Source: Candidatus Tiamatella incendiivivens (GTDB taxonomy: Archaea; Thermoproteota; Thermoprotei_A; Sulfolobales; Acidilobaceae). Taken from it: DNA of 64,000 nt. The notes beneath the pieces were generated by a model that saw nothing but the letters and a program-made list of their open reading frames with translations, was not told the origin of the DNA and did not search any database. The position numbers and the translations under genes were made by a program. Of this stretch, positions 54,624-58,363 are shown in pieces; the stretch's first letter is position 1; each line of letters opens with the position of its first letter. Location of the stretch: the NCBI GenBank assembly GCA_015522635.1, contig WALW01000019.1:310001-374000 (forward strand), written 5' to 3'.

Positions 54624-56474
54624 CTATTCTACAGTAACTGTTTTAGCTAAATTCCGGGGTTTATCAGGATCGTATCCTTTTTCCACGGAGATATAATAGG
54701 AGAGTAATTGATAGGCAGGAGTGTGAGCATAGGGTTCAAGTATTTCGTTTTCATATGATGGTATATTCAAAATTCTGGCTTCTGGCATATTGGTTCTAAT
54801 TATATCAGCCGTGGGGGTTGAAACGTAGATTACGCCTTTCCTTGCATGCATTTCCTTGATATTGCCTATCAATTCTTTCCAATGGTTTATTGTAAAGACG
54901 AAGAGTATGGGAAATCCAGGTTCGACTAGGGCAATCGGTCCGTGCTTGCTTTCGCCTGCAGGATAGGCTTCAGCGTGAATATAATCAATCTCCTTCACTT
55001 TTAATGCTGCTTCTAAAGCTAATATAGCCCCCAATCCTCTTCCGAGTATATACATACTCCGACTATTCGCCAGGTCTTTTGCGTACATCTTTACTAATGG
55101 TTCGCTTATTCTGATAGATGACTCGGCTATTTCCGAGGCCTTTGAAAGAATGCTCAGATATTCACTGGACTCGCTATCTGTTAGTCTTCCTACTATATGG
55201 GCATACTGTACGGCTATGTAGGTTAGTGATAGGACTTGCGTTAGATAGGTTTTCGTTGCAGCTACACCTATCTCAGGCCCGGCTCTCATGTAAATAGCAT
55301 AATCGCTTTCTCTAGGAATGGCACTTTCAAGCACGTTTGATACTGATATTATTTTTCCACCGCTTATTCTAAATGATCTGACAGCTGTTAATGTGTCAAT
55401 CGTTTCTCCGCTTTGGCTAATAGCTACAAGTATATCCTTGTCCCCTACCTCTTCTGAAATCTGAGTATACTCAGACGATATGAAGGGAATCGAAGCTCTC
55501 CCACCTAGTTTTGAGAGAAAGTATTTGAAAACCAGACCAGCATGGAAACTTGTTCCAGCCCCGGTAATGTAGATTTTCTCTGAGTTAACTAGATGTTCGA
55601 TGACTCTTTCTATACTTGGATCAGATTGTAATCCGAAGAATGTTTCTCTCAATGCTAGTGGTTGCTCGTAAATCTCTTTAAGCATAAAATGAGGATACCC
55701 AGCCTTAGAGATGTTTTCAATATTCCAATCTATTGTTTTTATTCTGGTTGTATAATCTATGAATCCATTTGCACGCTTTATCATTATTTCACTAGGTGAT
55801 ATCCATCCATATTCTCCATCTCTAAGTGGAATGATGTGATTTGTATAGCTTAGAACTGCAGGAATATCACTAGCAACTAAATTGACTCCTGATCCTACGC
55901 CAATAATCAATGGACTTAATTTTTTAGCAAAGTATATCCTAACAGGTTCCTCTTTATAGATAATAGCGAAGGCATAGCTTCCCTCAATTTCTCCTAGAGT
56001 TTCTCCCAAGATATCAATGAATCGCTTACCATCAGCTTCCCTTATCTTTTCTTCAATAAGGTGTGCTATAACCTCAGTATCTGTTTCACTCTTGAATAAA
56101 TGGCCTTTCTCTTGTAGGCCTTTCTTGATAACATAGAAATTCTTTATGATCCCATTATGAACTATGGCAATAATGCCTTTGCAATCAGTATGGGGATGAG
56201 CATTCTCGTCGCTAGGAGGTCCATGTGTCGCCCATCTTGTATGGCCTATCCCGGTTAGACCGTCGATTTCACTAAAATTTAGCTTGTTGGAAACTTCATC
56301 AATTTTGCCTCGTGCCTTTCTAATAATAATGTCCCCATTAGATATCACGGCGATGCCTACGCTATCATAGCCACGATATTCAAGCATTTTCAGAAGTTTA
56401 GTCAGGGTCTTACCTATTGTTTTATCCCTCAGCATATTCTTTTGCTTTGCCGCTATCCCTACAATACCACACAT
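54624..56474 (-). CDS. glmS: Glutamine--fructose-6-phosphate aminotransferase (isomerising)
   Basis: Makes glucosamine-6-phosphate. The mature N-terminal Cys (MCGIVGIA) is the glutaminase nucleophile; LEYRGYDSVGIAV and IGHTRWATHGPPSDENAHPH follow. Two SIS domains lie at about 290-420 and 460-600 (ITGAGTSFHAGLVFKYF; AISQSGETIDTLTAV; HAEAYPAGESKHGPIAL). 616 residues, full length, ending in the conserved DKPRNLAKTVTVE. Confidence 0.97.
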   Translation of the reverse strand: MCGIVGIAAKQKNMLRDKTIGKTLTKLLKMLEYRGYDSVGIAVISNGDIIIRKARGKIDEVSNKLNFSEIDGLTGIGHTRWATHGPPSDENAHPHTDCKGIIAIVHNGIIKNFYVIKKGLQEKGHLFKSETDTEVIAHLIEEKIREADGKRFIDILGETLGEIEGSYAFAIIYKEEPVRIYFAKKLSPLIIGVGSGVNLVASDIPAVLSYTNHIIPLRDGEYGWISPSEIMIKRANGFIDYTTRIKTIDWNIENISKAGYPHFMLKEIYEQPLALRETFFGLQSDPSIERVIEHLVNSEKIYITGAGTSFHAGLVFKYFLSKLGGRASIPFISSEYTQISEEVGDKDILVAISQSGETIDTLTAVRSFRISGGKIISVSNVLESAIPRESDYAIYMRAGPEIGVAATKTYLTQVLSLTYIAVQYAHIVGRLTDSESSEYLSILSKASEIAESSIRISEPLVKMYAKDLANSRSMYILGRGLGAILALEAALKVKEIDYIHAEAYPAGESKHGPIALVEPGFPILFVFTINHWKELIGNIKEMHARKGVIYVSTPTADIIRTNMPEARILNIPSYENEILEPYAHTPAYQLLSYYISVEKGYDPDKPRNLAKTVTVE

Positions 56475-56566
56475 ATTAATATACCCCCGCTTGGTAATGA
56501 TGTATGATTTTTCAACGCTATTATGGATTGGTGTTTTGCGATATTTATTTAGTTGTACTAGTTTTT

Positions 56567-56800
56567 ATGGGGGCTCTTAGCTTTGGCCCTAACTCATCTG
56601 GGATCGTCAGAACCCTAGTTAAACAGATAACTAGGGTAAACGCGTCATTGCCCCCTAATTCTTCATTACATAATTTATCTTTAAAATATAATGAAATCTG
56701 TTTCTTAAACATAATTCTATTAATCAAAAATATATCGAAGGAAATCAGAATAGTTCTTCGCGTTGTATGCAAGAAACTTAAAAACCGGGGAATCCTCTAG
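56567..56800 (+). CDS. Small hypothetical ORF with internal inverted repeat
   Basis: A 77-residue frame (MGALSFGPNSSGIVRTLVKQ...) that I do not recognise. A TATA-like atatttattt at 56541-56550 lies about 22-25 bases before ATG 56567, so the mRNA could be leaderless. It contains a perfect 10-bp inverted repeat (56612-56637) and an enclosing GGGGGC/GCCCCC pair, so the region might encode a structured RNA instead. A conserved zinc-ribbon ORF follows 18 bases later. Low confidence as a protein. Confidence 0.35.
   Translation: MGALSFGPNSSGIVRTLVKQITRVNASLPPNSSLHNLSLKYNEICFLNIILLIKNISKEIRIVLRVVCKKLKNRGIL
56612..56637 (+). repeat. Perfect 10-bp inverted repeat (stem-loop)
   Basis: accctagtta (56612-56621), loop aacaga, taactagggt (56628-56637). 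A second pairing, GGGGGC (56569-56574) with GCCCCC (56650-56655), encloses it. Together they would form an 87-nt folded RNA, but no known RNA family signature is recognised. Confidence 0.6.
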
Positions 56801-56818
56801 GAAACACGGTGAGTTGCA

Positions 56819-56968
56819 TTGACTAGCTGGATATTAAGATGCACAGAATGTGGAAGGGAATGGAAACTTGATGTTAGTTTTAATTTAAATGAGATGGGCA
56901 AGATCTACCATTATTGCACGTTTTGTAAGAAAAATACATTTCACCTTGTTGTAAAACGGATCGATTAG
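56819..56968 (+). CDS. Tiny zinc-ribbon protein (49 residues)
   Basis: TTG start with GGTGAG (56809-56814) 4 bases upstream; 49 codons ending at TAG 56966-56968. Two CxxC knuckles (CTECG at residues 8-12 and CTFCK near 33-37) spaced by 21 residues suggest a zinc ribbon. It is not RpoP, whose spacing is shorter. Function unknown; perhaps nucleic-acid binding. The 3' end overlaps the convergent ThrRS-ed gene by four bases. Confidence 0.65.
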   Translation: MTSWILRCTECGREWKLDVSFNLNEMGKIYHYCTFCKKNTFHLVVKRID

Positions 56969-58242
56969 CTGGTTATCTTTTTAATGTAACCAATCCCAGG
57001 TCTGCAAGGTTTTATTAACTTGTTTAGCACGGTTTCTAGCTCGGATAAACCTATCGAAAATTGGATGCCTTCTCTTCTATCCCGGATAGCTAATGTTTCT
57101 CTACCAATGTCACTTTTGCCGATTATTATTGTGTAGTTGCTCCATAGCTGGCCGGCATCTCTTAACTTTCTACCTAATCTTACCCTTCTTTCATCTAGGT
57201 ATATCCGCAAATTGCTGTATGTGTCTAGGAAGGCTGCTATTTTCCCCGCGTAATCTACTTCTTCAATACCTCCTGTCGCTGTTGCTATGTATATGTTTAC
57301 AGGGGAAAGCCAGCATTCCAGTGAAGGCGGGTTTTCTGAAAATTCAGATTCTTTTATTGCTATGTATACCCTTTTCGCTAAAACTATTTCCACCGGATAT
57401 GTTATACAAAGAGAATTCGTGCAAACACCTATTTCCTCACTCTCTACGTATAGTTTATTCCCTGATATAAAGACTGGTTTTTCGAATAAACCCGTAGAAA
57501 CAATGTCTAAATCGCTTTTAGAAAAGAATAACAGTAGGTTTCCGTTTGCATTTGTTATCAAACCCGGAGGTTCCATTTTCTCTTGCAGGATTTCATTAAT
57601 ATTACATAGATGAGTTGAATATATTCTAAGAGATGCGTTGAACAGTGATTGAATTCTAGCAACCAACGCGTTTAATTGAACGGGAAATATCCCAGTCTTA
57701 TCGAAGTACCCCCATCTTTTATAGACCTCTTTGAATACTGGTTTCAGATTCAGCGATTCAATTATCTTCCTTAGCGGATAACATTCTCTTTCAGGTATGT
57801 TTCTCATATCCGAACGCTCATATCGCCTTGATAGCTCACTTACTGGATGGCCGTAACAGTATATGTAAAATTCTTTATACCATCCAAAAGGTGCTCTAAT
57901 AATTTTTACGTTAATATCTCCTGGAAAGCTTTTCATAGAACTTTCCAGCTCCTTCATTATTGAAATAGCTATCGAGGGCGGAGCTAGTTTATCTGATAGA
58001 TGTGCATAAGGATATAATACGATTGTACCGGGTTTAAGCGAATCTATAAGTTTAATGACATCACTAGTAAACGCTTTTTTTATCTCATCAAGTAAGGCCT
58101 TGTCATTTTCCTCTATACTCACAAATATGACCAAGGCATTCCTAATAGGTTCCTCTAGTGATACAGGCAGCTCTCTGATCTTCGTTGCGGGCTCGTTTGA
58201 TTTAAACCAGAACTCTTTGGCATGAATGATCTGAACCTTCAT
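56965..58242 (-). CDS. Free-standing threonyl-tRNA synthetase editing protein (ThrRS-ed)
   Basis: Residues about 1-140 match the archaeal ThrRS editing domain, a D-Tyr deacylase-like fold that hydrolyses Ser-tRNA-Thr: VQIIHAKEFWFKS, IVLYPYAHLSDKLAPPSIA and RAPFGWYKEFYIYCYGHPVSELS. The C-terminal about 100 residues look like a class II anticodon-binding domain (AKIAAFLDTY; LRDAGQLWSNYTIIIG). The middle lacks class II motifs 1-3, so it cannot aminoacylate. In many Crenarchaeota ThrRS is split into catalytic and editing proteins; this is the editing one. ATG 58242 follows GGTG. Confidence 0.88.
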   Translation of the reverse strand: MKVQIIHAKEFWFKSNEPATKIRELPVSLEEPIRNALVIFVSIEENDKALLDEIKKAFTSDVIKLIDSLKPGTIVLYPYAHLSDKLAPPSIAISIMKELESSMKSFPGDINVKIIRAPFGWYKEFYIYCYGHPVSELSRRYERSDMRNIPERECYPLRKIIESLNLKPVFKEVYKRWGYFDKTGIFPVQLNALVARIQSLFNASLRIYSTHLCNINEILQEKMEPPGLITNANGNLLLFFSKSDLDIVSTGLFEKPVFISGNKLYVESEEIGVCTNSLCITYPVEIVLAKRVYIAIKESEFSENPPSLECWLSPVNIYIATATGGIEEVDYAGKIAAFLDTYSNLRIYLDERRVRLGRKLRDAGQLWSNYTIIIGKSDIGRETLAIRDRREGIQFSIGLSELETVLNKLIKPCRPGIGYIKKITS

Positions 58243-58363
58243 TTTTAACACCTATCGGAATATTTTTTTACTTCGCTTTATAGTTTCAGTTACCGGACCC
58301 TCTATATGACAACAGATAGAATTCATGTTTAATACCTTTCTCAGCCAAATCATAGTTTTTAGG

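Follow-up and report, generated by a model that had tools for sequence, protein, structure and literature searches.

A divergent, hairpin-bearing box C/D guide RNA, very probably directed at the wobble base of tRNA-Gln(UUG), in Candidatus Tiamatella incendiivivens and its order

The closest described counterpart of the RNA reported here is sR14 (Rfam RF01145), with which it shares the D guide RGGGCCAAAGC and the order of the boxes. It differs from sR14 in that the D' spacer of ~10–11 nt is replaced by a C-D' interval of 34 nt holding a 10-bp hairpin, and furthermore in its C'-D spacer of 15 nt, in its D box AAGA and in a score under the threshold of the family. In S. acidocaldarius, snoRNAdb predicts a C/D-guided methylation of U34 of tRNA-Gln(UUG) and the modification was observed, as stated in the accessible part of PMC7668247; sR14 would seem to be the RNA behind this prediction. 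Guidance of 2'-O-methylation of a wobble base is likewise described for sR50, the intron of pre-tRNA-Trp, in the accessible part of PMC7994747; while sR50 is an intron of its own pre-tRNA, the RNA described here has a gene to itself and forms its duplex across a spliced junction. As criteria for a box C/D RNA the same part of PMC7994747 gives a terminal stem, a uridine in box C and two sheared G-A pairs joining box C to box D, and the accessible part of PMC4644070 asks for at least nine target pairs that span the +5 nucleotide.

The locus and the strand of the folded element

The window, which denotes the whole analysed stretch of 64,000 nucleotides (contig WALW01000019.1, positions 310,001 to 374,000), had been described in an earlier note as holding, at 56541–56968, an ORF or a folded RNA followed by a small zinc-ribbon gene, and all items listed there are present in the sequence. 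The guide RNA is followed downstream by the gene glmS (54624..56474), likewise on the minus strand. A ThrRS-like protein (56965–58251) with an archaeal editing domain and an anticodon-binding domain scores under the cut-offs for full-length synthetases and looks like a free-standing editing protein. An A/T block is found at ~56541–56553, an ATG at 56567 starts 77 codons that run to 56800, and a perfect 10-bp inverted repeat (56612–56621/56628–56637, loop of 6) is enclosed by a 6-bp GC pair (56569–56574/56650–56655). The folded structure was confirmed, as the fold beats shuffled sequences on both strands (plus strand: z −3.75, 0/200 shuffles equally stable; minus strand: z −3.08, 1/200). Folding alone is blind to the strand, and the element was assigned to the minus strand because of the box motifs, the guide and the relatives. 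Thus, from the alternative of ORF or folded RNA the folded RNA was retained and the plus strand and the 77-codon ORF were given up. Similarly, the TATA-like block before the ATG exists as an A/T block but it is not the promoter of the RNA, which is encoded on the opposite strand. The features of the plus strand are as follows.

56567..56800, plus strand: 77-codon frame, not a gene; closed in G001, G002 and G012
56738..56797, plus strand: 3' remnant of a lost ASCH-domain gene within the 77-codon frame, found by tblastn against the intact gene of G001
56819..56968, plus strand: 49-residue zinc-ribbon protein with a TTG start and a bL33-like predicted fold, present in 38 of 40 relatives

A small protein or an RNA encoded on the plus strand would be suggested by the 77 open codons with a TATA-like block ahead of them and by a fold as good as that of the minus strand. 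However, the frame, which is antisense to the guide RNA, is interrupted by in-frame stops in all three close RNA-bearing relatives examined (in G002 after 22 codons, in G001 after 15 and in G012 after 24), its tail is the remnant of a decayed ASCH gene, and the C/D boxes, the guide and the peak of TATA-like hexamers described below are all on the minus strand. We therefore regard a plus-strand product as highly improbable, and the frame cannot be upheld as the leaderless protein considered earlier. The tblastn match between the remnant and the ASCH gene of G001 (L032 1590–2260; Pfam ASCH) amounts to 65% over 20 amino acids with an E-value of 8e-5, from a search restricted to a pair of short sequences. 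This gene lies between the guide RNA and the zinc-ribbon gene and is intact in G001 and G012 and broken by stops in G002. In the window merely the last 20 ASCH codons are left, which end the 77-codon frame, so that the gene is caught in the course of its loss.

The 49-residue zinc ribbon is a real and conserved gene, as the earlier note had supposed in describing it as SD-led, equipped with CxxC/CxxC and easily missed: the frame holds both CxxC pairs, GGTGAG is located five bases upstream of the TTG, and eight residues including the four cysteines are invariant in 25 sequences. With the ribosomal zinc ribbon bL33 the protein shares its size and the two CxxC pairs, and its predicted fold (model pLDDT 87) resembles that of bL33 over its length, the agreement being middling with Z ~5–6 over 44–47 residues and a TM of ~0.5–0.6. 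The similarity in sequence is weak (best bL33 match in a profile search E 0.0056); the archaeal ribosome chains among the matches listed in the same search were those of eL42 only, over short stretches, and Foldseek gave no match at an E-value of 0.001 or better. Archaea are not known to possess bL33.

Parts and target of the minus-strand RNA

The minus strand from 56655 to 56569 very probably represents an archaeal box C/D guide RNA for U34 of tRNA-Gln(UUG), in a single-guide form with a hairpin. Along this strand the parts follow each other in the order terminal stem, C box, hairpin, D', C', guide and D box.

56569..56655, minus strand: box C/D guide RNA, divergent and sR14-like, given from stem to stem (true ends may differ); copies in G001, G002 and G012
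56650..56655, minus strand: 5' strand of the terminal stem, GGGGGC, pairing with 56569–56574
56645..56649, minus strand: box C, AAUGA here and GAUGA in G001, G002 and G012, placed from the alignment
56612..56637, minus strand: 10-bp hairpin within the C-D' interval, at the position expected for the D' guide
56607..56610, minus strand: box D', CUGA, placed from the sequence
56594..56598, minus strand: box C', GAUGA, putative k-loop with D', the pairing being read from the sequence
56580..56589, minus strand: D guide GGGCCAAAGC; its complement is in the anticodon arm of spliced tRNA-Gln(UUG), and the A at 56583 is opposite U34
56575..56578, minus strand: box D, reading AAGA in G002 as in the window, CUGA in G001, CGGA in G012
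56569..56574, minus strand: 3' strand of the terminal stem, GCCCCC
56680..56691, minus strand: TATA-like element for the guide RNA, TTATAT and TTTAAA starting 36 and 30 nt before 56655

At the level of primary sequence, the C/D kink-turn is composed of the stem GGGGGC/GCCCCC, of GA at 56646–56645 facing GA at 56576–56575, and of the uridine at 56647, and the D'/C' k-loop of CUGA at 56610–56607 and GAUGA at 56598–56594. Box D departs from CUGA in the window, and the copies passing the sR14 threshold deviate as well (CAGA, CGGA). A canonical double-guide layout would show guide-length spacers of ~10–12 nt on both sides; here, the C-D' interval is 34 nt long with a hairpin and the C'-D spacer has 15 nt instead of 12. 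The RNA is thus classified as single-guide, because the hairpin takes the place of the guide in the C-D' interval. Of the 111 parsed copies of the family, 47 have a TATA-like hexamer between −40 and −31 relative to box C; at the mirror place on the other strand, 11 of 111 have one.

The tRNA gene of the same genome that ARAGORN labelled Stop(tta), probably due to its intron, is that of tRNA-Gln(UUG) (G000:C10:21855–21960, L127); the intron follows position 37, and the exons match query positions 1–38 and 39–73 at 100%. With positions 31–40 of the spliced anticodon arm, 5'-GCUUUGGCCC, the D guide forms 10/10 contiguous Watson-Crick pairs, a result equalled by 18 of 3000 shuffled guides, while against the 42 tRNA genes as they stand the best match has 7 contiguous pairs. 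These 10 pairs include the +5 position, the fifth nucleotide upstream of box D being placed opposite U34, and on tRNA-Gln(CUG) this nucleotide would face C34, a mismatch. From this complementarity, the guide RNA most likely directs 2'-O-methylation of U34, the first anticodon base of tRNA-Gln(UUG). A target in rRNA was rejected, as no contiguous guide match above 7 was found in the own 16S and nothing convincing in 16S or in the 23S of three relatives; the own assembly has no detectable 23S rRNA. The guide duplex extends over the exon junction, with 7 pairs before and 3 pairs after it, for which reason the spliced tRNA would be the better substrate. An intronless tRNA-Gln(UUG), GCTTTGGCCCCCG, displaying the spliced sequence directly, occurs in 10 of 39 tRNA loci of relatives. 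In G001 and in G002, one UUG gene each is interrupted by an intron at the corresponding position; for G012, a genome 55% complete, the single tRNA-Gln locus taken is the CUG isoacceptor and the UUG target was not seen.

In the mechanism that we propose, the C/D kink-turn, which the GC stem of 6 bp closes, and the D'/C' k-loop would each be bound by L7Ae. The L7Ae-bound RNA would be joined by Nop5 and fibrillarin, and the D guide would pair with the anticodon arm of tRNA-Gln(UUG) in its spliced form so that the wobble base U34 receives a 2'-O-methyl group. Expression of the RNA of the window and its binding by these proteins are predictions from its sequence.

Copies in related genomes

A BLAST search with 56560–56680 against 40 relatives returned G002 (E 2e-15) and G001 (3e-6), both of the same genus, and G012 of the same family (5e-4). 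The other matches, with E-values from 0.007 to 1, were taken as chance, apart from a second match within the G002 copy and that of G030, which turned out to be the real copy of this genome. In the alignment of the four species GAUGA or AAUGA, GAUGA and UAGGGCCAAAGC are invariant on the minus strand, within the GC stem. A pattern search allowing one mismatch matched 40 of 197 genomes (control: 3), and the loci found show the box C/D anatomy of C, D', C', guide and D. The pattern GATG-N1-6-GGGCCAAAGC occurs in 137 of the 197 genomes of the order, mostly with one match each (reversed control: 4 genomes), and in its exact form is absent from the remaining 60; of several C'+guide matches in a genome, one or part of them were taken. 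The resulting 139 copy rows, which include likely chance matches kept in (L075, L078, L138, L142, L143, L183), could be parsed for the C-D' interval in 111 and for the terminal stem in 132 cases. In the named collection, an exact scan matched 70 stretches, of which 65 are from Thermoproteota, nearly all titled Desulfurococcales, Sulfolobales or members thereof, and five from bacteria (Gemmatimonadetes, Rufibacter, Blastomonas, Iodobacter, Janthinobacterium), taken as chance. The zinc-ribbon gene is found within ~1.1 kb of 57 of the 139 copies, 43 of which have it upstream and divergent, like the window, in a search confined to the fetched loci of ~1.2–1.5 kb on each side. The sR14-type copies of family f11, presumably Sulfolobaceae, are divergent from the same gene at 66–80 nt in the loci listed, and five of them score 56–60 bits on sR14.

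The Rfam threshold of sR14 (38 bits) was passed by six of the 17 loci of relatives scanned (L081, L083, L084, L202, L225, L229), three of 11 loci reaching 58.6–60.3 bits and three of six further loci 56.5, 56.5, and 38.2 bits; other hairpin-bearing or distant copies remained under the cut-off at 19–32 bits. At curated Rfam thresholds the window yielded only a tRNA and its guide-RNA stretch nothing relevant at E-values up to 5, and the copies of G001 and G012 (L033, L034) gave no sR14 match at E-values up to 0.5. A sequence model, R1, for which 27 hairpin-type copies from other genera were used, recovers G001 (16.6 bits) and misses the window, G002 and G012, so that within the close group homology runs from the window via G001 to the family. 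The window copy is hence the weak link of the case. Its D box AAGA, its 15-nt spacer, its score below the Rfam threshold and its failure with R1 could also reflect a decaying, non-functional copy in this genus, with U34 being methylated otherwise or not at all. Yet four species have retained the guide, C', the GC stem and the GA of box C while part of the hairpin sequence changes between them, and the genome holds no second C'+guide match; decay thus appears very unlikely to us, and a working guide RNA is preferred.

Terminal stems score at least 14 in 24 of 132 copies compared with 4.1% of controls with swapped partners, and most copies have no strong stem (median score 7, controls 5). In the covariation analysis, which the earlier note had proposed as a check, formal covariation was weak in the alignment of four sequences (two pairs changed on both sides, matched by 76/500 shuffles) and RNAalifold did not recover the hairpin on the alignment of 27 sequences; covariation was therefore dropped as a proof.

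The position of the RNA upstream of the glmS start on the same strand in all four close genomes (G000, G001, G002, G012), in G012 ending 18 nt before the ATG with GGAGG in between, might indicate a cis-acting leader that controls glmS, either as a riboswitch or as a kink-turn bound by L7Ae. Against this, a glmS start is downstream in just two of 30 loci covering up to 1.5 kb on each side, L063 (window) and L064 (G002), and of the remaining loci L059, L077, and L079 hold a 3' part of a glmS and 25 none. Furthermore, the most conserved stretch is the guide complementary to the tRNA, and in the window a stretch that by its A/T-rich letters resembles a promoter lies between the RNA and glmS. Control of glmS is consequently judged very unlikely, and a glmS riboswitch was discarded, as distant copies show C/D boxes mostly without glmS and linkage to a glmS start does not extend through the family.

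The hairpin in the C-D' interval and its significance

None of 300 shuffles of the 34-nt interval of the window gives as good a hairpin. A short C-D' interval is seen in 58 of the 137 genomes, a long one with a hairpin of 6 bp or more in 39 and a long one without hairpin in 12; the other 28 were unparsed, of which 17 belong to f1, the family of the window, mostly lacking a CUGA D' box. Three of the 12 without hairpin (L186, L191, L192) resemble canonical short forms, a later CTGA having been picked by the script. Short and hairpin types are largely found in different families: the former prevail in f2 (18/22), f3 (12/16), and f11 (25/26), the latter are seen in f9 (24/29), f5 (4/5), f10 (2/3), f7 (2/7, 5 unparsed), and f1 (6/25, 17 unparsed). 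Compared with shuffled intervals, 36 of 53 long ones contain a hairpin at p ≤ 0.05. Upon removal of the hairpin the interval left has a median of 7 nt in 39 copies and 8 nt in the window; the short type has a median of 11 nt and a range of 8–15 nt in 58 copies. The hairpin may accordingly serve to hold the two kink-turns at a workable distance.

The arms of the hairpin vary in sequence between families. In alignment A3 (27 copies, L066 to L184), columns 18–26, a 5' arm GGGG[AC]CCTC is nearly unchanged in f5, f9 and one f3 copy. Such constancy exceeds what a spacer alone would require, and the arm may act as a further element of recognition.

A hairpin in the D' interval was not mentioned in the literature covered by a limited search, and the word "hairpin" does not occur in the accessible parts of PMC4644070 or PMC7994747. 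While the type of guide and the modification are already known, the hairpin form is new as far as could be checked. We put forward tentatively, as a proposal that we find about as easy to doubt as to believe and lean slightly towards doubting, that in archaea the D' guide of one widespread class of box C/D RNAs has been traded for a stable hairpin, that a single-guide RNP acting on tRNA only keeps the geometry of two kink-turns by folding out the extra bases, and that its guide reads the spliced junction, whereby wobble methylation of tRNA-Gln(UUG) would follow splicing.

All hairpin-type copies scanned are under the current Rfam threshold of sR14, and such genes are therefore likely missed in annotation. 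The locus holds an RNA of a known kind with a known modification, divergent in form, provided with a hairpin and overlooked by current annotation. With it an unannotated intergenic element would gain a function, and a guide RNA spread over the order would be tied to one wobble modification. A fixed spacing was reportedly described for archaeal C/D RNPs by Tran et al. in 2005, and the family may offer natural variants for testing if a folded-out hairpin can satisfy it.
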